IMG/VR virus record: IMGVR_UViG_3300025305_000070
Coordinates: 1-32,673 of that record
DNA from: a virus
DNA: 32,673 nt
Direction: 5' to 3' (one strand)
A program made the translations under genes and the position numbers. Of the stretch, positions 19,995 through 32,673 are shown one piece after another. The notes beneath the pieces were generated by a model. That model was given only the letters and a program-made list of their open reading frames with translations, ran no database searches and was not told the origin of the DNA. Within the stretch, counting starts at the first letter, position 1. Each line of letters begins with the position of its first letter.

Positions 19995-22376
19995 ATGCCT
20001 TTCACTAAAATCGCCCCTCAAGCTGGAATCGTCACGGATGGTACCAGATACTCCGCGCAAGGTACTTGGTATGATTCCGATAAGGTGCGGTTTCGTAAGG
20101 GATTTGCCGAAAAGATCGGTGGTTGGGCCAAGTATGTTCTGGCGACCTATTTGGGAACTGCCAGAAAGCTTCACGATTGGGTTACCGATTCCGGTAATAA
20201 GTATATCGGGGTTGGGACCAATCTGAAGTTATATGTAAACTTTGGTGACAGTTACTACGACATTACCCCTACCCGCACCACGATCACCCTTGGCACGGAC
20301 AAGATCACCGCTGTCAGCGGCACTGCCGTCGTAACCATAGACACGACAAGCGCCCACGGGGCGGTTGCTGGTGATTATGTAACCATTGCCGGTGCGACCG
20401 CTACGGCTGGCATTGGTACGGCTGCACTCAATACGGAGCATCGTATTGTAGCACTTGGTGATCCCAGTGATGCTAATCCATCTACGAAGTTTCGGGTCGT
20501 ATGCTCCACGAAAGCAACATCTAGTGCGAGTGGTGGTGGAAGTAGTGTAACTGCCGCATTCCAGATCAATGTCGGACTCAATGAATATGTGAGTGGTTCT
20601 GGTTGGGGTGCGGATACATGGGGATCTGGCACTTGGGGATCTAGTGCTACCTTGGGGCAATCCTTGCAGTTGCGTTTGTGGTCGATAGCGAACTTTGGTG
20701 ACGATATGATCGCTAACGCCCGCCAGGGAAATATCTATTATTGGGATGAAAGTGCAGGTACGGGGACTGCCGCCGTGGCGTTAAGTGATACAACGCGCCG
20801 TACCGTAACCCTTTCAAATGATCCGGTAACCACTACGAGTGGTGGCACTATTATTACAATTATCGACAAGGCTGGTCATGGGGCTACTGCTGGAGATACG
20901 GTCACGATATCCGGGGTAGACGCAACGATAGGTGGTATAACTGCGGCGAGATTGAATGTAGAGATGACGGTGGCTTCGGTTACAAACAAGGCCACGTTTA
21001 CGGCGGATATTGGTGGTGCGAATGCTAGTGGTACCGCAACGGGTGGTGGCTCTGCCGTAGTCGCGGTCTACAAGGCTGGAACCTACTACACCCCTACAGC
21101 CGCTCATCAAGTGATGATGTCGGATGTTGCCCGTCACGTTATCGCGTTTGGCTGTAACGAGATTGGCGCAACCACGATCAATCCATTGCTTGTCAGGTGG
21201 TCTAGTTCGGAAGCTGCCGGGGTGTGGCAACCATTATCTACGAACAGTGCTGGTGGTCAGGAGTTACCGGCCTGTTCGGAGATAGTGGGTGCAATGACGG
21301 CTCGCCAAGAGATTCTGATATGGACCGACTGCGGTATCGTCAGCATGAGGTACATCGGTAGCCCCTTCTATTTCTCGTTTACGGAGACGGCCAAGGGTAT
21401 GTCGATGGTATCGCCCAATGCTGCGGTAAACGCGGGTGGTACGGTTTATTTCATGGATCGTGGTGCATTCTACACCTATACCGGAACGGTACAGAGACTT
21501 ATCTGCCCCGTGCTGGGCACCGTGTTCGATGATTTTGATGATAGTCAATCTTATAAGGTGGTTGCCGGATCAAATACGGATTTCTCCGAAGTTATATGGT
21601 TTTATCCATCCGAATCGGGTAATGGAGAGATCGACAAGTATGTCATCTTCAACTATGCCGAAAATATCTGGTATACCGGAACGATGGTGCGTGGCACATG
21701 GAACCATGCCGGTACTAAAACTTATCCGCTTGCTTCTTCGATACGGGAAAGGGACTTAGGTACTACTCCGCTATCGACAAGTAGTAGTTCCGGTACCGTC
21801 ACGATCACGGATTCGGGTCACGGGCTTAAAGCGGATGACGAAATTATTTTGAATAACGTATCGACGGTTGGTGGTTTTTCGACTGTTGTGCTCAACAATC
21901 AGCATACCGTCGCATCCGTTACGGATTCGGACACATATACGATCACCTTGGCTGATCTTGCTACATCCTCCGCCACGGGCGGTGGGGACGAGGCCAAGGG
22001 TATATATCCAAACTTGTTATACAGTCACGAAAGCGGCCATGACGATGATGGATCGGCGATGACGGCATACATCGAAACGGGTGATATAGAGCTTGGCGAA
22101 GGTGATCAATTCTGGTCGCTGAACAAGATTATACCGGACATCCAATTCAGGGGTGGTGATTCAAGTGACGAGGTGACGGTCAGCTTGAATGGACATAACT
22201 ATCCCGCACAAGCCCAATCCGAAATAGCGACTGCCACGGTCACGCCCTCCACGGATCAAGCGTTCATTCGTGGTAGGGCACGGCAGGTGTCGATGAAAGT
22301 GCAGAGTACGGGTGCCGGATACGGTTGGCGTGTTGGCTATGTACGACTCGACGGCAGAACGGATGGCAGACGATGA
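19995..22376 (+). CDS. Tail nozzle-like protein with inserted repeated domains
   Basis: The start IAPQAGIVTDGTRYSAQGTW followed by YDSDKVRFRKGFAEKIGGW is typical of large structural proteins of marine podoviruses. The 793-residue length equals that of T7 gp12 (794) and it follows the adaptors and fibre, so the tail nozzle (T7 gp12, P22 gp10) is the likely role. Three copies of a strand-rich module of about 75-90 residues are inserted near residues 93-184, 266-352 and 590-667. Each carries a GHG or AHG turn, an A-G-D/D-x-V/E strand and a GGG end. Residues ~201-214 read SGWGADTWGSGTWG, shared with the repeat protein at 16597. The C-terminal end is not unusual. Confidence 0.75.
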   Translation: MPFTKIAPQAGIVTDGTRYSAQGTWYDSDKVRFRKGFAEKIGGWAKYVLATYLGTARKLHDWVTDSGNKYIGVGTNLKLYVNFGDSYYDITPTRTTITLGTDKITAVSGTAVVTIDTTSAHGAVAGDYVTIAGATATAGIGTAALNTEHRIVALGDPSDANPSTKFRVVCSTKATSSASGGGSSVTAAFQINVGLNEYVSGSGWGADTWGSGTWGSSATLGQSLQLRLWSIANFGDDMIANARQGNIYYWDESAGTGTAAVALSDTTRRTVTLSNDPVTTTSGGTIITIIDKAGHGATAGDTVTISGVDATIGGITAARLNVEMTVASVTNKATFTADIGGANASGTATGGGSAVVAVYKAGTYYTPTAAHQVMMSDVARHVIAFGCNEIGATTINPLLVRWSSSEAAGVWQPLSTNSAGGQELPACSEIVGAMTARQEILIWTDCGIVSMRYIGSPFYFSFTETAKGMSMVSPNAAVNAGGTVYFMDRGAFYTYTGTVQRLICPVLGTVFDDFDDSQSYKVVAGSNTDFSEVIWFYPSESGNGEIDKYVIFNYAENIWYTGTMVRGTWNHAGTKTYPLASSIRERDLGTTPLSTSSSSGTVTITDSGHGLKADDEIILNNVSTVGGFSTVVLNNQHTVASVTDSDTYTITLADLATSSATGGGDEAKGIYPNLLYSHESGHDDDGSAMTAYIETGDIELGEGDQFWSLNKIIPDIQFRGGDSSDEVTVSLNGHNYPAQAQSEIATATVTPSTDQAFIRGRARQVSMKVQSTGAGYGWRVGYVRLDGRTDGRR

Positions 22377-22898: not shown

Positions 22899-25800
22899 AT
22901 GGCATTCGGCGGAGCATGGGGCAGAGGTATAGGTGGGTTGCGTGGTCAATTCCAGCAACCCCGGCAGATGCAGCAGCGTAACCAGCGTTTTCAGCCGATG
23001 CAGCAGGCGGGGGTGCAGCTAAGTGCCCAGCAGCCGCAATTACAGCCGCTGCCTTATGGGCAGCCGCGACCCCAGCAACAGCAGATGCAGTTGGGGCAGC
23101 AGGGGCCTCCGCCGGGATTGTATAATCCGCAGCTTGCTGCACGGCAGCGAGCAGATGCAGCAAGAATGCTTCATTTAGCACCGGATAGAATGGTAGAAAC
23201 TGCCTCTCCTGCGGATACGGCATATCTGCGAGAACGAGTGGAAGCAATTCAACCAAATGTTTTTCGGCCACCACGTGGACCGGGATTTGCCAAGCCATTG
23301 TCACCTCCTCCTTCCGCTCCCGATCAAGCAGGTGGTGGTGCAGGTGGACCTCCAACGAGTTGGAAAATGAGTATTGAACCAATGGCTCATGGTGGTATGA
23401 TTCCGGGTTATCAGAATGGTGGTGGAGTTGACCCGGATGATGAGAAAATTGCTATGATGGAGCTTATGTTAAGGGAGATAGCGAAGGGTGACTCCCGATT
23501 TGCAAGCCGATCTCCTTTTGGTGAGAATCCTGAAGAGAGTGAATGGTATCGGGAGAATATCCTACCTGAAGAAAAACGCACTTTTGGTGGACAAGTGGTT
23601 CCTCTTGATTCTATAAATTATGCGGTATCAAACAATCCACTCAGAGCAGCGACAAGTTTGTCGGATTTAGGTGCTAAAAATGCAGAGCTTGCGTTGTTAC
23701 ATGATTGGGCCAAGAACCCGGAGAATGTTGTTCTTCCGGGTCAAAGATCAGGGGCGGGTTCTCGTTTATTTGGGAAAGAAATAATGTGGCAAAATCCCGA
23801 CGATCCCCGACCGGGAATTCGCAGGTCAATCACCCCATATAGCAGGTATGCGACAGAATTACAGGCACGGGCTGATGAAGGTCGTGCTTATGGCGGCATA
23901 ATCGGGCTACAAGGTGGCGGTTATATACCGATGTATGCAGGTGGGGGAATTCCTGGTTATAGCATAGGCGGATTCTTTAGAGGATTGGGCAAGGTACTAT
24001 CTAAAGTAGTACCCACGGCAATGAATTTCATTCCAGGGCTTAGTTCTTTGAGTGGAGTGGCCAAGGCGGGAATAGGTGCGTTGTCTCAGGGTATAGGCGA
24101 TATATCTTCTGGAAGAGACTTGAACTTAGATAGAATGTTGGGTGGGGCAGGCAGAACGTATGCGACCTCAAGTGCTATCAATAGAATAAGGGATATAGAG
24201 GGATTAAAGGATGAGGGCCTATGGGGGGGTCTTGGTAAGGTTCTGACCGATGAAGATGTTAGCAGGCAAGCGATGGCAGCATTGGCTGACATTCCGTTTG
24301 GCGAGGCTCAAGCATTAGCCGTAACCGAAGCAGCGGCGAAACGAGGTGCAGAACAGCAGGCGGCAGAGGCGGGCGACTATACCGGAGTAGTTAATCCGAT
24401 GGGCACCGCTGGACGCATAATGCCTACATTGGTGAGTGCTGATCCTGTCGGTGGAATTGCAGAACGGATGACTTATGGTCAACAACCAATCGATTATTCG
24501 AGATCGGATGGTGGAATAGTTCCCGGTTATAGGAAAGGTGGGCGCACGAAGAGAAGGGGGAGAGGGGGGAGAGGGCAGTCACGACGAAGGATTGCTCCCG
24601 CTGTTCGGGAGCCCATTATGCCACCTCCTCAATATGATGACAATGGAGAGGATGAGGAGCAGGATTGGTTTGCTCCACCACCTATCGTCCCTGCCGTTCA
24701 GCCGGTTGCCCAGCAGTTACAGCAATCGGGGCTTGTGCCGCTGACGCCAATGATACCGGCTGTTCGGACGCCACCTCCAGTCGTGCCTGACTGGCGGGCC
24801 ATGGAAGAGAATGAAGACTTTGTGGAGCCAGAATATCCGGTTGTACCGCCGGTTGTGCCACCCGTAGTTCAGCTGCCGGTCACACCTCAAACTGCTGCTG
24901 TCACGCCACCTATTCCGACGCCTGCTCCCGTTCCCGTACCCCTGGCTGCCGACCAGCAGGAGATAATAGAAGAAGAGGAATTTGTTCCAGAACCTCAGCC
25001 AGTTTTACCGCAAATACAACAACAAATTCCCCAGACTGCTGCTGCCTTGCCCGTGAAAGCAAAAAAAAGAAAGAAGGTAAAAAAACCTCCTATCAAAAAG
25101 AAACCTCCTAAACCTGCGCCCGTGGACTGGCGAGATGAGGAAGAAGAGGATATGGAGGATGTGAGGCCAGTTGTTCCAGAGGTCATTACTCCCGCGCCTC
25201 CACCGATTTTACCGCAAATACAGGAACAAATACCCCAGACTGCTGTTGCCTTGCCCGTACCACCCATGATTACGCCGCAAACGTCAGTTCCAGAGGAGTC
25301 GCGTGACTGGGGGGAAGAGCCCGTAGCTACACCTTATCCTGTGGATAGGCGGCAGATACCAGATGATATTGAAGATTTAGTGCCGGAAACAACTCGTAGT
25401 TTACGCAGGAAAGAGGCTGTAGCCACGCCTACGGATACCCAACGAGCGGCATTTGAAGCCGAACAGCGTCGTTATGCCGAAGAGGGGGCGGATGTAGCAC
25501 CTCCGTCGGCAGCACCTCCGGTTGAGTCTCCTTCAATGGCTGATCGACAACGGGAAATGGCTACACGGGAACAGGCAGCGATGTCAGCAACGACAGGAGA
25601 ATTTGATCCTGCTGATCTCTCCGGTGAATTGCCAGCTACGATGGCGGGATATGTGCCACCTGCAAGACTTCCAGAGGACTGGCGAGACGAAGAATTAGAG
25701 GAGGAAGGAGCCGAATCGGATGCTGCCTATCAGAAAACCATTGATTCATTAGAGCGGAGACGAGAAATACGGCTGGCTGACGCGAGTGAGGAAGAGAAGG

Positions 25801-27143
25801 AAGCTTTAAAACTTCCCGAAGATTTGGGGCCGGGTGTAGTTGGTATTGGAGAGGCTCCTGTAGATTGGGAGCGTCTCGCTAAAGATCCTGATTATGATCC
25901 ATATGCCAAGCCACATACTCCGACAGATGAAGAGCGGGCGGCTGTCGAAAAAGAGAAGGAGCGTCATGCCCAGTCTACCACATCTGCTGGTAGCATTACT
26001 CCCACAACCAGAAGTGGAACGGGTGTGGGGTCTGGTTTCTATGGTGAGCAGAAATGGTTTGATCCCAATGCCCCCGATCCGGCCAAGAGAGATATTGGTG
26101 GATTTAGTCCACATGAACTTCCACGAACTTCTGCCGACTTTGCCGTGGCGGGTGATGCGGGTGGTGCGGATCTCTTAAGCAGATTGAATGCACCTGCTGC
26201 TCCGGTACAGAATTATTTGTCTCCTGCGCCTGTACCAGGGGCGGCAGAGGGTGGCCTTGTTGACATTGGCCAAGTTCCCATGGACAGGCTTGAGCGGTTA
26301 GCGAAAGCCGCCCAACAAATTGAAAGTCCCGGTTCCCAACAGATTATAGAACAAGCTATTGAAGATTTTGGCGTAGAGATGGTTAATCAGATCATAACAA
26401 TGATCCAACAGCAGGGTCCGATGACGGCTCCCGATGGTTCTGTTCCAGAGTATGGTATCGGAGGTTTTCTAAAAAAATTAGGTAAGGCGGTGACATTAGG
26501 TGGGACACAGCTTCTTCCTAAAAGAATAAGAGATCCCATTAATAGGGGTGTGTTAAAAGCTGCACCTGTAGCAGTTAACTTTATTCCAGGGGTTGGTCCA
26601 ATCGCTGCTGCTGGTATTGGCGCAGTAGCAAAGGGCATAGAAGGTAGGATGGATGCGGCGGATAGGGATAGGGAAGCTGCCGCCGTGCCGCAGGATCAGC
26701 TAATAGATGCACCTCAGCTAGAGGAAGATCCCCTTACTGCGTTGCCAAGTCCTCAACCTCAGCGGTATATGCCTAATCCAGCCGCATGGCAAGCTCCCGC
26801 ACAACAGGAAGTTGCAGGCCAAATGACTTATGGGCATGAAGATTGGGCTAGAGGTGGCTTGATCAATGGTGGCGGTGGCGATGCCATGGCTGATGACATT
26901 TTGGTGAATGCCGAAATGGGCATGAATGGAGAAAGACAACCGATAGCGGTATCGGCAGGTGAATACATCGTTCCTGGGGATGTCTTGGCCCATTTAGGTA
27001 GTGGAAACACCGAAGAAGGTGGTGAAGTTATGGATCAGTTTGTGGAGGATGTCAGAGTACAAAGAACTGGTTCGCCCGAACAACCGGCCCCTATTGATTT
27101 AAGAGATGTATTACCCGGTACATATGGTGAGAGATATGGATAG
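22899..27143 (+). CDS. Giant putative DNA-ejection or internal virion protein (1414 aa)
   Basis: Residues 1-80 are Gln/Pro-rich. Glycine-framed GGI-type motifs lie near 164, 331, 348 and 539. Residues ~350-400 hold an amphipathic module (IGGFFRGLGKVLSKVV, NFIPG, GIGALSQGI), repeated at ~1186-1248 (IGGFLKKLGKAV, NFIPG, GIGAVAKGI). Residues ~550-1000 are a Pro-rich, acidic linker with DW(R)-acidic motifs at 631, 743, 803 and 927 and a basic KKRKKVKKP patch. The C-terminus (ADDILVNAEMG, then QPIAVSAGEYIVPGDVLAHL) is one I know from large late proteins of marine phages. No enzyme motif is visible. First of four such genes; ejection is inferred from size, position and membrane-active-looking modules. 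It overlaps the next gene. Confidence 0.72.
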   Translation: MAFGGAWGRGIGGLRGQFQQPRQMQQRNQRFQPMQQAGVQLSAQQPQLQPLPYGQPRPQQQQMQLGQQGPPPGLYNPQLAARQRADAARMLHLAPDRMVETASPADTAYLRERVEAIQPNVFRPPRGPGFAKPLSPPPSAPDQAGGGAGGPPTSWKMSIEPMAHGGMIPGYQNGGGVDPDDEKIAMMELMLREIAKGDSRFASRSPFGENPEESEWYRENILPEEKRTFGGQVVPLDSINYAVSNNPLRAATSLSDLGAKNAELALLHDWAKNPENVVLPGQRSGAGSRLFGKEIMWQNPDDPRPGIRRSITPYSRYATELQARADEGRAYGGIIGLQGGGYIPMYAGGGIPGYSIGGFFRGLGKVLSKVVPTAMNFIPGLSSLSGVAKAGIGALSQGIGDISSGRDLNLDRMLGGAGRTYATSSAINRIRDIEGLKDEGLWGGLGKVLTDEDVSRQAMAALADIPFGEAQALAVTEAAAKRGAEQQAAEAGDYTGVVNPMGTAGRIMPTLVSADPVGGIAERMTYGQQPIDYSRSDGGIVPGYRKGGRTKRRGRGGRGQSRRRIAPAVREPIMPPPQYDDNGEDEEQDWFAPPPIVPAVQPVAQQLQQSGLVPLTPMIPAVRTPPPVVPDWRAMEENEDFVEPEYPVVPPVVPPVVQLPVTPQTAAVTPPIPTPAPVPVPLAADQQEIIEEEEFVPEPQPVLPQIQQQIPQTAAALPVKAKKRKKVKKPPIKKKPPKPAPVDWRDEEEEDMEDVRPVVPEVITPAPPPILPQIQEQIPQTAVALPVPPMITPQTSVPEESRDWGEEPVATPYPVDRRQIPDDIEDLVPETTRSLRRKEAVATPTDTQRAAFEAEQRRYAEEGADVAPPSAAPPVESPSMADRQREMATREQAAMSATTGEFDPADLSGELPATMAGYVPPARLPEDWRDEELEEEGAESDAAYQKTIDSLERRREIRLADASEEEKEALKLPEDLGPGVVGIGEAPVDWERLAKDPDYDPYAKPHTPTDEERAAVEKEKERHAQSTTSAGSITPTTRSGTGVGSGFYGEQKWFDPNAPDPAKRDIGGFSPHELPRTSADFAVAGDAGGADLLSRLNAPAAPVQNYLSPAPVPGAAEGGLVDIGQVPMDRLERLAKAAQQIESPGSQQIIEQAIEDFGVEMVNQIITMIQQQGPMTAPDGSVPEYGIGGFLKKLGKAVTLGGTQLLPKRIRDPINRGVLKAAPVAVNFIPGVGPIAAAGIGAVAKGIEGRMDAADRDREAAAVPQDQLIDAPQLEEDPLTALPSPQPQRYMPNPAAWQAPAQQEVAGQMTYGHEDWARGGLINGGGGDAMADDILVNAEMGMNGERQPIAVSAGEYIVPGDVLAHLGSGNTEEGGEVMDQFVEDVRVQRTGSPEQPAPIDLRDVLPGTYGERYG

Positions 27144-30141
27144 GCGTTATCCAAAATATCAGGCAGGTGGGATGCCTTCCGGGGTGCCCACGGACATTCA
27201 GCGACTTATCAGAAGAATGTTGGAAGCGAGAACGGATAGGGCGGAAGACGTGATTCCCGATCTGGCTTACGGTGGCATAATTGGGCTACAGCGGGGTGGT
27301 TTTTTGAGGGATCTCCCTCAAGGACCGACGTTTGGAACAGTTCCCGATTATGGGCCACGGCCACGCGGTAGTGACACTATTCAAGAACTTCTAGAGCGGG
27401 CTAGAGCCGTACCAGATGGACTTCAGGTGATCGGACGTGGCTTGGAGCGGGATCCTAGTCAAATGGAAGAGTCTCGTGGTCCCAGTAGATTAGGGGAATA
27501 TGCAGAAAGAATTATGGGAGGTATTGGTCAAATATCACCATTTTCCGGGTTAAGGAGGTTACGAAGAGCCGGTAAAAGTCTTGGGAATGTGGGAGAAAGA
27601 CTTAGAGATCGGATTGCGCCCCACATTGAGATAATGGAAGCGATAGGAAGAGGAACTGGAAGGCCCGAAGATCGGAATCCCGCAGAACGTCGATGGGGGG
27701 CTGATATAGCGGTACGAGATTTAAGTAGACGTTTCAGGGATAGTGATATCGCAGAGAAACTGAGAAGTGGTATTCTTCAATCTGCTCGACGCCTGACGCC
27801 AGGGCGATTTCGGAATCCTGACTTTGGTATGGATTTCCAGAAGAATGAATTGGAAGGTCGTGCTTCTGGTGGCATAGTAGGATTCCAAGCTGGTGGTAGC
27901 CCCTATCGGGAGAGAATGGTTCAATCTTATGTGTCACCTGAAGTGGCACGGCCTTATGCCGATCTAACTGGTAGAATCCAAAGAGCAGGTGCACAACCCT
28001 ATACCCCATATGGTGGACAGCGTCTAGCTGCTACAACTGCCGATCAGGCACTCGCACGGGCTGCTTATGGAGCTTACGGGCGTGGTGCTGGTCCGGCTGG
28101 CACGCAACAAGCAGCCGCTACGATGGGACAAGCTGGCCAGATGCTTGGTGGTGCCTATCAGGGTATGGCCGGGCTACAGCCGCAATATGCTCAGATGGCT
28201 GGACAGTTTGGTGGAGCGGCTCAAGGTGCGTTAGGGCAAGCACAGGCTGATGCTGCCCGTCTGCGTGGCGCTGCCGGTACTGCTCAAATGCGTGGTGATC
28301 TTGCCGCTGCCGGAATGAGAGGGACCGGGGCTGCTGCTCAAGCAGAACAACAGGCTTTAGGTGTCGGACAAGCGGCTGCTGGTGCGGCTGGCCAACAGCA
28401 AATGACTGGCTTGGGCACGGGAATGGGTGCGGCTGGACAAGCTGCATTAGCGGCACAGCAGCAATTTGGTACTGGAATGCAGGGGTTTGGGGCTGGCGCA
28501 GCAGGACAGGCTCAAGCTCGTGAGGCTCAGGCGGCGGCATTAGGACAGCAGGCGCAACAGGCTGGTGCGGCAGGACAAGCTCAAATGGCTGGGTTGGGAA
28601 CTCAGGCAGGGCAGCTTGGCACTCAAGCCATGGGCCAAATGGGCCAGACTGGACAGCAATCCAGGGAACAGGCGCAACAGGCTGCTGAACGTATGCGTCA
28701 AATAGGTGGTCAGGCACCTCAATTGGGTAAGGGTGCGGATCTGTCCGACTATATGTCCCAGTACACCGCTGGCGTCACCGATCCTCAGTTACAGCAGTTG
28801 ATGGAATTTCAGAGGATGCAGGGACAGGAATTGGGATCACGAGCGGCACAGGCTGGTGCCTTTGGTGGTTCACGAATGGGTGTTGAAAGAGGGAAGCTGG
28901 CGGAAACTACAACACAGGAAGCTTCCAAGATCATTGGCGAGGGCCTGAAAGAGGGACAAAAGCAGGCGGTAGAGCGAGAGCGTGAAGATGCTCGCCGCAG
29001 GGAACAAGCCCAGCAGACCGGACTTACCGCCGAACAGCAGGCTGCTCAAATACGCGCAGCGGCACAAGGACAGGCGTTGGCGGCACAACAAGCTGGTGTT
29101 GGTGCCGCACAGGCAGGTGGGGCACAACAGCTACAGGCTGCACAGCAAGGTCTGGCCGCAGGTCAGCGAGGCAGTGATGCACAATTACAAGCGTTGCAGA
29201 CGGGTATCGCTGCTGGTCAGTTTGGTAGTGAAGCCCAGATGAGGGCACAGCAGCAAGCTGCGGCCATGGGACAGGCTGGTGCGGGAGCGTATCAGCAAGC
29301 TCTTGCAGGACAGGGTGCGCTTACCGGACAGGGCATCGGCATGGGTATGCAAGGACTTACGGCCCAACAAGCTGCTGCTGCCAGAGGCGCACAGTTTGGT
29401 CTACAAGGACAACAACAGGGTTTCCAAGCTGGTCAGGCAGGCGCACAGCTTGGCATGACCGGACTACAGCAGGCTGGTCAGTTGGCCCAGCAGGGTTATG
29501 GCACGATGGGTCAACTGTTAGGACAACAGCAGGGTGCTTTAGGCGCACAGGGTCAGGCATTTGGTCAGATGGGCCAACTTGGTGGCCAGATGGGCCAACT
29601 TGGTGGTCAGCAGAGACAGCTAGGTTATGAAGAACAACGGCAGCAATTACAGAGACTACAGGCAATGGAGCAGGCTGGTGCCCGTACCCAACAAGAACAG
29701 CAACGGGACTACGATATCGCCCATCAGGATTTCCTGAGACAGCAGCAATATCCTCAGCAACAGATAGGATGGCAGTTAGGTGCGATGCAACAGTTGCCGT
29801 ATCAGAGCACGCAGGTAATCGGTGACTATGAGCCGACACCGGGCCTTGCGTCCGATGTAGCTGGGGCAGTGGATGCCACGGCAGCAGAGAAAGAGGCAGA
29901 ACTAGCCCGTCAGCGGCAATTCCCTGATCAAGGTGCGTCCACCACGGGGACGGATCTTGGGATTGGTGGAGCAACAGAATATGATCACCTTGATGACGAT
30001 AGTTCTGATGCCGACGATTCGTACGATCCATACAATCCTTACGCAGCAGGTGGTGGATACCTATCAAGCAGTGGCATTCTGGCACCATATCATAAGAAAC
30101 TTATAGATGGGCTGTATGCTGGTGGGAGGATCAACTACTAA
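27136..30141 (+). CDS. Large Ala/Gly/Gln-rich putative internal virion protein (1001 aa)
   Basis: The N-terminal third (1-260) contains two glycine-framed motifs (YGGIIGLQRGG ~45; SGGIVGFQAGG ~244). Two long Ala/Gly/Gln-rich low-complexity parts (about 316-532 and 620-835) flank a more ordinary helical block (535-620) with AGAFGGSRMGVERG, a signature I know from internal or ejected podoviral proteins (gp14-like). The C-terminal part is Asp/Ser/Tyr-rich. The ATG at 27136 is used because it overlaps the preceding stop and a GGTGAG lies just upstream; an in-frame start at 27106 is deeper in the previous gene. No enzyme motif or signal peptide. Role by analogy with T7 gp14-type proteins. Confidence 0.7.
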   Translation: MDRRYPKYQAGGMPSGVPTDIQRLIRRMLEARTDRAEDVIPDLAYGGIIGLQRGGFLRDLPQGPTFGTVPDYGPRPRGSDTIQELLERARAVPDGLQVIGRGLERDPSQMEESRGPSRLGEYAERIMGGIGQISPFSGLRRLRRAGKSLGNVGERLRDRIAPHIEIMEAIGRGTGRPEDRNPAERRWGADIAVRDLSRRFRDSDIAEKLRSGILQSARRLTPGRFRNPDFGMDFQKNELEGRASGGIVGFQAGGSPYRERMVQSYVSPEVARPYADLTGRIQRAGAQPYTPYGGQRLAATTADQALARAAYGAYGRGAGPAGTQQAAATMGQAGQMLGGAYQGMAGLQPQYAQMAGQFGGAAQGALGQAQADAARLRGAAGTAQMRGDLAAAGMRGTGAAAQAEQQALGVGQAAAGAAGQQQMTGLGTGMGAAGQAALAAQQQFGTGMQGFGAGAAGQAQAREAQAAALGQQAQQAGAAGQAQMAGLGTQAGQLGTQAMGQMGQTGQQSREQAQQAAERMRQIGGQAPQLGKGADLSDYMSQYTAGVTDPQLQQLMEFQRMQGQELGSRAAQAGAFGGSRMGVERGKLAETTTQEASKIIGEGLKEGQKQAVEREREDARRREQAQQTGLTAEQQAAQIRAAAQGQALAAQQAGVGAAQAGGAQQLQAAQQGLAAGQRGSDAQLQALQTGIAAGQFGSEAQMRAQQQAAAMGQAGAGAYQQALAGQGALTGQGIGMGMQGLTAQQAAAARGAQFGLQGQQQGFQAGQAGAQLGMTGLQQAGQLAQQGYGTMGQLLGQQQGALGAQGQAFGQMGQLGGQMGQLGGQQRQLGYEEQRQQLQRLQAMEQAGARTQQEQQRDYDIAHQDFLRQQQYPQQQIGWQLGAMQQLPYQSTQVIGDYEPTPGLASDVAGAVDATAAEKEAELARQRQFPDQGASTTGTDLGIGGATEYDHLDDDSSDADDSYDPYNPYAAGGGYLSSSGILAPYHKKLIDGLYAGGRINY

Positions 30142-32072
30142 TGGGCATTCTTGATGAGAGGCGATATGCAGATAGTATGACCCGTAAGGAAATAGCGGAT
30201 GCACTGAAGAATGGTCATCCTCTGATTCCGGGTTTTTTGGTGGCTGATGCAGCCAAACAGATGCAGGAGAATGACGCTTTATTGAAGGTTTTGGAAGAGC
30301 AAGCCGGGCTCCCACAACCCGGTCAAAGTGTCACCGATAAGCTAGAAGCATATCTGCGTAACCCGGATGCAGCCCGACAACAAAGGCCCGGAGGTCCGCC
30401 ACCCGGCGCACCACCCGGCGCACCACCCGGTGCACCGCCTGAAAGACGAAGATCCATGCCACAGGGTGGATCGTTAGGACCAGGCGAGCCTTTCCCCGAA
30501 CCCGTAGGGGCGGGTGGTCCCATGCCTGGGCCTAGAGTGCCGGGGGGAGCAGGTGGAGCTATGCCCGGAATGTTGCGAGGAGCACAAGGGCCGGGTGCCC
30601 CAATGAGACGTGGTGGTATAGTCGGTTTCCAAGAAGGTGGAATTGCAGATGAGTTGACCTATGGGGATCAGGATGACCCAAGTGGCTGGCAAAGAGCAGG
30701 TGGAATTGGCCTGAACTTTTTGACTGGCGCAGGAAGCTTGGAAGAACTTGGGGATCAGTCGCGATGGGAGACTGCTGGCAACCTTGCACTGGCAGGTTCG
30801 ATGCTCGTGCCGGGCTTAGGCTGGGGAGTTGGTGGTGCGGCCAGGGCGATCCCATGGGCAGGAAGGGCCATGAAAGGTCTTTGGGGGCTTCGGACTCCAA
30901 CCAGAGTGGGACAGGCTGTAAAGGCTGGTGCGGCTGGAGAGAGTCTAATAGGAAGAGGACTTGCTCGCCTGTTAGGTGGTAAGTCCAATGTCTCCGCTCT
31001 CCGTGGCCCTGGCCCTCGTGGTTTTACGATGCCAGGACATACCGGCTTTACAAGGAGGACACTTGTGGATCGTGCGTTAAGGCGTCCGGGTTCGGAGATA
31101 GGCTTCAGTGCTCTTGGAAGACGGGCTCTTCTCAGGGCGACTGTTGGAGGTTTAGCAGCTTCTAGTTTGCTAGGCAGGATGAGTGATGAAGAGATTGATG
31201 CGTTGAGTGATGAAGAGGTCGAGGTGGAGCTTCGCCGTCGAGGAATACCTTCTGGAGAGGGAACAGGAGCAGGAAGATCTCCAAGCCAAGATATATTTGA
31301 CCAGATAGAGACATACAGAACTGCGGCTGGTATCCCGACAGAAGCAGAAAAGAACCAAAACAAACTAGACGAGGATCGTGCTAAAGAGCTTGGAGGTTAT
31401 AAAGCTGGAATCGCAGGATTGAGGCCCACCGAAGAGCAATACCGTTTAAGGAACAGAAGTGTCGGGTTCGGTGCGTTGGCCAAACTTCTCGCTAGAACCG
31501 GCGGTCCCGACGATATTGAGCCTGGTGGGGTAGGGGCAGCTATTCGTGGTGAGACAGAAAGACAGTTGGTTGAGAGGCTGGGATTTGAAGATAAACTTGC
31601 CGGTATCGACACGGACATCTATGGCGTTGAAAGTGGGTCAGCAGGAAGACAGGCTTTACTCTCACGGGCTGGCCAGGCGTATGACATGCCTACACTAGAA
31701 TTGATGATGCAAGAGAGGCGGGATGCGGCGGCTCATAGGCGTGCAGTGGAGGTAGCTAATATCCAAGCAGGGGGAAGGAATCAGGCAATGATTGCACGCC
31801 TCTACGAGGCCCTGTTTAGCGGGGTTCTTTCAGAAGAAGAGAAAGAGATGTATCTAAGAGAGATAGAGAGACTGAGGGGGGGTGCGTCACTAGGAGGACT
31901 TGAAAAAGAAATGGATCGAGCACGGAGCGGAAGATCCGGGCCACCAGGCTCTGAGAGGATAGCGGTTGGAGGACCGGAGGATGCCATAGGAATGGATCAG
32001 ACGCCATCAGCAGCCGATACTTATCAAATGTGGCTAAGGGGGAACAATCCGCAGTCAGTAGGAATGGGATAA
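30141..32072 (+). CDS. Putative internal virion protein with collagen-like and hydrophobic parts (643 aa)
   Basis: Residues 1-75 are helical and charged. Residues ~84-153 are Pro/Gly-rich with PGAPPGAPPGAPP tandem units. The glycine-framed motif RRGGIVGFQEGG is near 155, followed by ADELTYG, a combination also in the 1414-residue protein (TYG next to a GGI motif). A hydrophobic stretch at ~207-250 (NLALAGSMLVPGLGWGVGGA) and another at ~332-348 could insert in a membrane or form helices. The C-terminal third is helical and charged. GGGAGGA lies ten bases before the ATG, which overlaps the previous stop by one base. I infer an ejection role from neighbours and shared motif. Confidence 0.7.
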   Translation: MGILDERRYADSMTRKEIADALKNGHPLIPGFLVADAAKQMQENDALLKVLEEQAGLPQPGQSVTDKLEAYLRNPDAARQQRPGGPPPGAPPGAPPGAPPERRRSMPQGGSLGPGEPFPEPVGAGGPMPGPRVPGGAGGAMPGMLRGAQGPGAPMRRGGIVGFQEGGIADELTYGDQDDPSGWQRAGGIGLNFLTGAGSLEELGDQSRWETAGNLALAGSMLVPGLGWGVGGAARAIPWAGRAMKGLWGLRTPTRVGQAVKAGAAGESLIGRGLARLLGGKSNVSALRGPGPRGFTMPGHTGFTRRTLVDRALRRPGSEIGFSALGRRALLRATVGGLAASSLLGRMSDEEIDALSDEEVEVELRRRGIPSGEGTGAGRSPSQDIFDQIETYRTAAGIPTEAEKNQNKLDEDRAKELGGYKAGIAGLRPTEEQYRLRNRSVGFGALAKLLARTGGPDDIEPGGVGAAIRGETERQLVERLGFEDKLAGIDTDIYGVESGSAGRQALLSRAGQAYDMPTLELMMQERRDAAAHRRAVEVANIQAGGRNQAMIARLYEALFSGVLSEEEKEMYLREIERLRGGASLGGLEKEMDRARSGRSGPPGSERIAVGGPEDAIGMDQTPSAADTYQMWLRGNNPQSVGMG

Positions 32073-32078
32073 GTATCG

Positions 32079-32673
32079 ATGCCTGACAAGTGGTATCGCC
32101 TACCTGACGGTTCGGAAATCAACATACCGGACGATTATACCCCAGCCCAATTATCTTCCGTATTCGACCAACTCTCCACGGAGTTTCCAGACTCTATCGG
32201 GAGAGCATGGGCTACCTACGGCCAAGAAGAAGAGGAAGACGAGGGCAACATCTTCGGGGCACTCTACCAGGCTGTAGAGAACCTCCCCCGTGGAGCCGCT
32301 AGTGTACCACTCATGGGAGCGCAGGGTATCGCTGCGTTGCTCACGCCCCATAAAGACACAGCCATAGAGAAGAAGCTCAGAGGAGCTAAAGATTGGCTGT
32401 TTAGCGGTATCGATCCCAAGTATCGTGAGTCCAAGATAGCGGGCATCGGATTGGGAGTGGGCCAGATAGCTCCGATGATGCTTGGCGGTCAGGCTTTGGC
32501 TGCTCTTGGTGTTGGCGCGGCAGTGCCTGGGATGCTCACTGCCCGTGGGCTATCTATGGCCTCTCCTGCTATGAAGCTCTTAGGTGGCGCACAAGGAGTT
32601 CAGAGCATAGCTGCTGGTTCATTGATGAGTATACCCATGCATTGGGGCCAGTACGCTTCAGGGATATCCGATT
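32079..32673 (+). CDS. Fourth large ejection-type protein, N-terminal part only
   Basis: The gene runs off the window end; 198 residues are visible. The opening KWYRLPDGSEINIPDDYTPA resembles the short first domain of large phage proteins that begin with a strand and an Asp-Asp-Tyr turn. Then come acidic residues, a helical block (LPRGAASVPLMGAQGIAALL) and a long hydrophobic Gly/Ala part from ~120 (IAGIGLGVGQIAPMMLGGQA) onwards. This hydrophobic part recalls the membrane-active segments of T7 gp16-like proteins. It starts six bases after the previous stop with AGGAATGGGA upstream. Whether it carries a peptidoglycan hydrolase domain cannot be told from the visible part. Confidence 0.65.
   Translation, partial: MPDKWYRLPDGSEINIPDDYTPAQLSSVFDQLSTEFPDSIGRAWATYGQEEEEDEGNIFGALYQAVENLPRGAASVPLMGAQGIAALLTPHKDTAIEKKLRGAKDWLFSGIDPKYRESKIAGIGLGVGQIAPMMLGGQALAALGVGAAVPGMLTARGLSMASPAMKLLGGAQGVQSIAAGSLMSIPMHWGQYASGISD

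Follow-up and report, generated by a model that had tools for sequence, protein, structure and literature searches.

The stretch of viral DNA examined here (the window: all 32,673 bases of the IMG/VR source record IMGVR_UViG_3300025305_000070) contains three consecutive late genes, for the large proteins p1414, p1011 and p643, through which a short motif framed by pairs of glycines is scattered. A sequence-only reading of the window had described this motif as GGI[IV]GFQxGG, had counted seven clear copies and had supposed them to be a nameless signal for docking, processing or membrane contact. All seven could be confirmed, each of them in frame on the plus strand, and they are indeed confined to the three genes (Table 1); the window's other open reading frames (ORFs) of at least 60 amino acids have no copy. 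The strict string, however, fits only two of the seven, and the copies are better described by a pair of related patterns, A-x-GGI[IV]G[LF]QxGG (10-mer) and A-x-GG[LM]IPGYQxGG (11-mer). What is constant in the consensus is the spacing, the central glycine, a [LF/Y] position, the glutamine, and an alanine two residues before the first GG. Tandem copies of the 10-mer and 11-mer sometimes overlap in one GG (GGIVGLQDGGIIGFQAGG; GGLIPGYQNGGIVGLRGGG).

The three genes are placed 3' of a gene for a gp10-like virion protein. In gene 2 the longest ORF has 1011 amino acids from the ATG at 27106; the 1001 residues previously given to it, from the second ATG at 27136, fit the L020 homologue better. None of the three proteins matches PHROG, Pfam or NCBIfam at E 0.01 (nor p1414 at 0.1). 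INPHARED holds no match for p1011, p643 or the L010 protein, and p1414 has matches there through its C-terminal GE[FY]V module only.

Table 1. Genes, motif copies and module at the locus, with window coordinates.
Feature	Position	Strand	Description
Gene 1 (p1414)	22899..27143	+	1414-amino-acid low-complexity protein; four motif copies; C-terminal GE[FY]V module
Copy 1	23391-23423	+	GGMIPGYQNGG, 11-mer form, p1414 residue 165; kept in L003, L020, L076, L079
Copy 2	23892-23921	+	GGIIGLQGGG, 10-mer form, p1414 residue 332
Copy 3	23943-23972	+	GGIPGYSIGG, p1414 residue 349; without the glutamine, weakest copy
Copy 4	24510-24542	+	GGIVPGYRKGG, 11-mer form, p1414 residue 538
GE[FY]V module of p1414	26853..27080	+	residues ~1319-1394
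Gene 2 (p1011)	27106..30141	+	glutamine-, glycine- and alanine-rich ejection-type protein; two motif copies
Copy 5	27271-27300	+	GGIIGLQRGG, gene 2; alignable in L020 but not in L003, L091, L092
Copy 6	27868-27897	+	GGIVGFQAGG, gene 2
Gene 3 (p643)	30141..32072	+	643 amino acids; one motif copy
Copy 7	30612-30641	+	GGIVGFQEGG, p643 residue 158; in predicted disorder (pLDDT, the predicted local distance difference test, ~34)
Gene 4	32079..32672	+	start of giant protein, cut at window end

Enrichment and conservation

Both p1011 and p1414 are of low complexity, which speaks for one account of the motif, namely that it is an effect of composition or chance in glycine-rich proteins, or else a repeat or signal at the level of the DNA. 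The probability that we accord to this account is nevertheless negligible. When each protein was shuffled 20,000 times within blocks of 60 residues, the pattern GG[IVLM]x(0-2)G[FYL][QRS]xGG appeared on average 0.001, 0.006 and 0.002 times in p1414, gene 2 and p643, against the 4, 2 and 1 copies observed. A codon scan of the entire IMG/VR collection for GGI[IVM]G[FL]QxGG found 64 stretches, whereas a control scan with the reversed peptide, of identical degeneracy, found 2; on the strength of the shuffles and this control, composition and chance were rejected. Nor does a glycine-rich composition explain the motif, many of whose carriers are of ordinary glycine content (6-9%); the check on composition suggested along with the sequence-only reading thus did not refute it. 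A repeat at the DNA level was rejected because the synonymous codons differ among the seven copies in the window and vary between homologues.

A scan for the 11-mer GG[LM]IPGYQxGG, a form that the first one had not covered, yielded 34 stretches independently; its carriers are partly relatives of p1414 and partly tape measure proteins (TMPs) of the siphophage type, and two of them (L204 and L223) match phrog_10030 (1e-116 to 1e-122). Each of the 69 viral matches is in frame, and all but one of them (68) fall within the main ORF; of the 56 stretches in 84,980 prokaryote species genomes (257 gigabases), only 11 fall within a main ORF. A random 15-mer occurred in 40 stretches of the viral set, from which the size of the set can be roughly reckoned at ~21 gigabases; the density of the motif within genes would then be some tens of times that in prokaryotes. 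A general bacterial motif was accordingly rejected, the genome matches being mostly out of frame, antisense or in minor ORFs. Many of the prokaryote matches (L142, L160, L165, L166, L168, L174, L176, L177, L182, L191, L193) have in common HELGGI[VM]GFQxGGL...VRFVE...GE; they lie mostly in non-main frames and look like the antisense reading of one conserved gene.

In pairwise alignments of the three proteins with their homologues, identity reaches 75% at the motif residues, compared with 46% in the flanking 40 residues and 47% in the rest; where residues are identical, the codons differ in 50%, 43% and 45% of cases, respectively. Conservation above that of the flanks, with codons free to vary, means that purifying selection acts at the level of the protein, and a check for loss of the motif from homologues of the three genes, suggested along with the sequence-only reading, found it conserved in all three. 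For example, copy 6, which lies just upstream of the family-wide SYVSPEVARPYADLTGRI...YGGQRLA region of gene 2, is retained by each of the five homologues compared (L003, L004, L020, L091, L092), in L003 as -GIIGFQAGG. We clustered 852 ORFs from loci found by the motif pattern or anchored on gp10: the motif is present in 12 of the 13 members of the p1011 cluster and 5 of the 7 of the p643 cluster, it is spread over more than 20 clusters, and it is absent from families such as the gp10-like one (77 members). Gene 4 was rejected as a carrier because its 19-member cluster is likewise free of the motif.

The ejection cassette

That the three proteins share little else, as was at first supposed, is an incomplete description, because they are also the products of genes 1 to 3 of a cassette that recurs. 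In order, it encodes a GE[FY]V-module protein, then an ejection protein marked by the signature FGGSR (at residue 586 of gene 2), a motif protein and, usually, a giant protein. We find this cassette in the clade of the window, in the distant clades L018, L042, L053, L059, L130 and L132, and in DSL-LC04 (OR003939.1), a phage assembled from a lake metagenome (PMC10611076). The third gene, directly after the ejection-protein slot, keeps the motif at residue ~100-176 across clades; in the window clade the motif stands additionally in genes 1 and 2. The third gene of DSL-LC04 carries MANGGIVQRFQEGS at residue 165 and shows no BLASTP similarity to p643, so that slot, architecture and motif appear to outlast the remaining sequence. 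Alignment of the third-gene N-termini across clades by hhalign gave P of 0.012-0.41.

The first two genes can also be related to those of DSL-LC04. Gene 1 is syntenic with a gene labelled 'tail tape measure protein' there. The second cassette gene of DSL-LC04 (294 amino acids; 6.9e-9) and that of L028, a member of the p1011 cluster (5.1e-9), match phrog_4287, 'DNA ejection protein'. p1011 itself has no match to this family at E 0.01; it occupies the same slot and differs by its expansion with glutamine-, glycine- and alanine-rich sequence and by a motif upstream of the common region. In L070 and L026 a single ORF combines the GE[FY]V protein with the FGGSR ejection protein by fusion, which supports a functional link between cassette genes 1 and 2. 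The giant fourth protein of L018 (L018:4592-11374, 2260 amino acids) matches at its C-terminus the DarB-like antirestriction family phrog_10089 (8.8e-62) and also Pfam LPD39, matches which suggest a polyvalent protein that may be injected.

Profiles identify further virion genes in the window: a portal (phrog_1216), a major capsid protein (phrog_371) and the gp10-like protein (phrog_3287). The large terminase belongs to phrog_38, and its nearest named phages are 023Pt_psg01, DSL-LC04 and the pelagiphage HTVC027P. The gp10-like tail protein and its ejection-type neighbours suggest a short-tailed phage. The gp10-like protein (19995-22376) has 793 amino acids, as against ~620 in distant relatives, and matches the E1_FCCH and endosialidase beta-barrel profiles weakly; perhaps it contains inserted domains.

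The GE[FY]V module

Whether the motif clusters in adjacent late genes of podoviruses had been put forward as a check. It does recur in neighbouring ejection-type genes, and in DNA-injection proteins from many unrelated environmental bacteriophages, but it is carried also by TMPs of the siphophage type and by proteins with lytic or transglycosylase-like domains, often with a GE[FY]V module alongside. An alignment of the module (A1, 29 sequences, mainly from motif-bearing loci) was used as a profile against the sequences of the PDB. It matched the TMP of mycobacteriophage Douge, gp16 (8ZDO), in two stretches with E 1.3e-15, and weakly the TMP of JBD30 (8RK3) at residues 1010-1059; the authors of the latter structure propose that the protein is cleaved at residue 1066 upon ejection (PMC11445458). 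A leader of GG and two hydrophobic residues, D-x-I-x-A and SDGEFV are common to these siphophage proteins, the C-terminus of p1414 and most motif records. As a whole, however, p1414 matches no TMP family and has only the C-terminal module in common with them, and the free-standing motif differs from the module in its ending, QxGG, and in having none of the remaining parts after it. The module is unnamed in the libraries that we searched.

In p1414 the module consists of the leader RGGLINGGGG, then DAMADDI and SAGEYIVPGDV (GEYIV at 26958-26972), and finally helices. Hence RGGLINGGGG, formerly listed as a weaker relative of the motif, is not a stray copy but the leader of a C-terminal module of the tape measure type. 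Several clades have modules that begin with GGIARLNxG... or GGIITAQSGTYIPGFANGD..., and leader forms such as GGIaRLNxG... and GGxYIPGFxxGD... resemble the free-standing motif; the annotated TMP of DSL-LC04 has a motif-like GGIASLAKGGS ~40 residues before GEFVF. An AlphaFold model of the module places two-residue strands in the leader GGLI (63-64) and in GEYI (99-100), from which we infer that the leader may pair with the GEYI strand.

The module is found in other surroundings as well. In cluster 16, a different family (L017, L047 and relatives), a GEYV/GEFV module lies near the N-terminus and the motif ~40-65 residues later; L017 matches phrog_2588 and, weakly, endolysin profiles. The motif protein L211:1286-6484 (1732 amino acids) has GE[FY]V modules and a domain like the C-terminal one of aggregation-promoting factor (NF052397, 2.1e-19).

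Candidate functions

AlphaFold predicts for p643 a helical head (1-54), a proline- and glycine-rich disordered stretch that includes the motif, and a helical body of low confidence; its mean pLDDT is 46.9, and the model serves here solely to place the motif in predicted disorder. The position of the motif between head and body, after a disordered stretch, would suit a proteolytic processing site at which a protease of phage or host cuts near the GG pairs and frees an N-terminal segment for delivery. For a cut site, up to four copies per protein and tandem copies with a common GG would be odd; the conserved residues flank the centre on both sides, and no protease could be recognised among the cassette genes. 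We regard processing as unlikely. Among the known systems closest to the motif is the glycine-rich stretch of the TP901-1 protein Tal (NGGGNSGGGD; PMC11409707), which is likewise interdomain, in a protein of the injection side, and proteolysed; it differs from the motif in having neither hydrophobic core nor glutamine, in being limited to one protein family and in its sequence otherwise.

The same disorder could be taken to mean that the motif is a flexible, weakly self-adhesive linker, comparable to the reversible cross-beta segments built of glycines and aromatic residues, by which disordered ejection proteins would be glued together without a dedicated acceptor. Its glycine-framed aromatic or aliphatic core within low-complexity sequence, its tandem repetition and the low predicted confidence in its vicinity all agree with this. 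A fixed consensus is more than a plain linker needs, however; the fixed length, the glutamine and the upstream alanine point to specific recognition, and the carriers with only 6-9% glycine are again hard to accommodate. This makes a linker quite unlikely in our judgement.

A third alternative is suggested by what follows copy 3, an amphipathic and hydrophobic stretch (FFRGLGKVLSKVVPTAMNFIPG). Hydrophobic stretches rich in glycine and proline, of the form [FL][IV]PGxG (NFIPGLSSL, NFIPGVGPIAAAGIGAV, MLVPGLGWGVGG, MFVPGVGFVSGG), recur twice in p1414, in p643 and in the relative L025 (window 23973-24080, p643 residue ~213-235, and gene 3 of L025), and it is possible that they are membrane-active segments. 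As similar stretches come after the motif in p643 and L025, the motif itself might make contact with the membrane or envelope, as a glycine-framed hydrophobic plug that helps ejected proteins into the host envelope; TMPs are believed, once ejected, to build channels in the membrane (PMC11445458). In unrelated proteins, however, most copies are followed by polar, proline-rich or charged sequence, and the invariant glutamine would not be needed for membrane insertion, so that we hold this alternative to be decidedly improbable.

Among docking, processing and membrane contact it is docking that fits best. We propose, as a serious possibility that falls somewhat short of probable, that the motif is a short docking element of the protein which links ejection and tape measure proteins to one putative acceptor. 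The fixed spacing and the fixed glutamine, the location in disorder, the multiple copies and the common fate of the carriers are what one would look for in a docking motif. The carriers would be virion proteins that are threaded out with the DNA, both the podovirus-like ejection proteins and the siphophage TMPs. Free-standing copies may mimic the leader strand found in GE[FY]V modules and could dock by edge-strand pairing with a single acceptor, either this module or a conserved surface of tail or portal. Such docking, weak and multivalent, would keep the ejection proteins, themselves disordered, assembled in register inside the virion, and upon opening of the channel they might peel off one after another. 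A bolder version, in which podovirus-like ejection proteins and siphophage TMPs obey one docking code that a single conserved acceptor reads, perhaps the GE[FY]V module itself, strikes us as rather doubtful.

Several observations weigh against docking. The partner is putative and none has been identified. The module was recognised in 37 of 50 10-mer records and 20 of 23 11-mer records (57 of 73 together) and in 0 of 40 random viral records, but the presence of tail genes was not matched in the random records, and the contrast should be taken as suggestive and not as a measured odds ratio; the co-occurrence is moreover partly by construction, A1 having been built mainly from motif-bearing loci. 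A few of the long motif records (G011, G027, G035, G044) have no recognisable module. The pairing of leader and GEYI rests on strands of two residues in a model with a mean pLDDT of 69, and a fold search with that model in the PDB gave no match. The number and position of the copies in genes 1 and 2 differ between close relatives, and gene 3 of L004 is without a copy of the pattern, with GGIVGFQDRG instead.

The earlier statement that the motif has no name still holds for the profile libraries and open papers that we searched. None of the open papers found contains the motif strings or the GEFV strings searched, in a search that did not extend to subscription papers or preprints; a tblastn search with a tandem-motif peptide against named phages had no result up to E 10, for which the shortness and low complexity of the peptide are probably responsible. 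Short linear motifs in virion proteins are known in principle; that one should be shared between ejection and tape measure proteins seems not to have been described.

Little is understood of the way in which podoviruses choose, arrange and release the proteins that go ahead of their DNA, and the ejection proteins of environmental phages mostly match no known family. A motif that marks proteins without detectable similarity to one another could assist the annotation of ejection and tape-measure-like genes from sequence, and an element of ten residues offers a handle, by mutation or crosslinking, on what holds ejection proteins in the virion. If the common docking code were true, two injection machineries that are usually kept apart would use one address for the cargo that leaves with the DNA.

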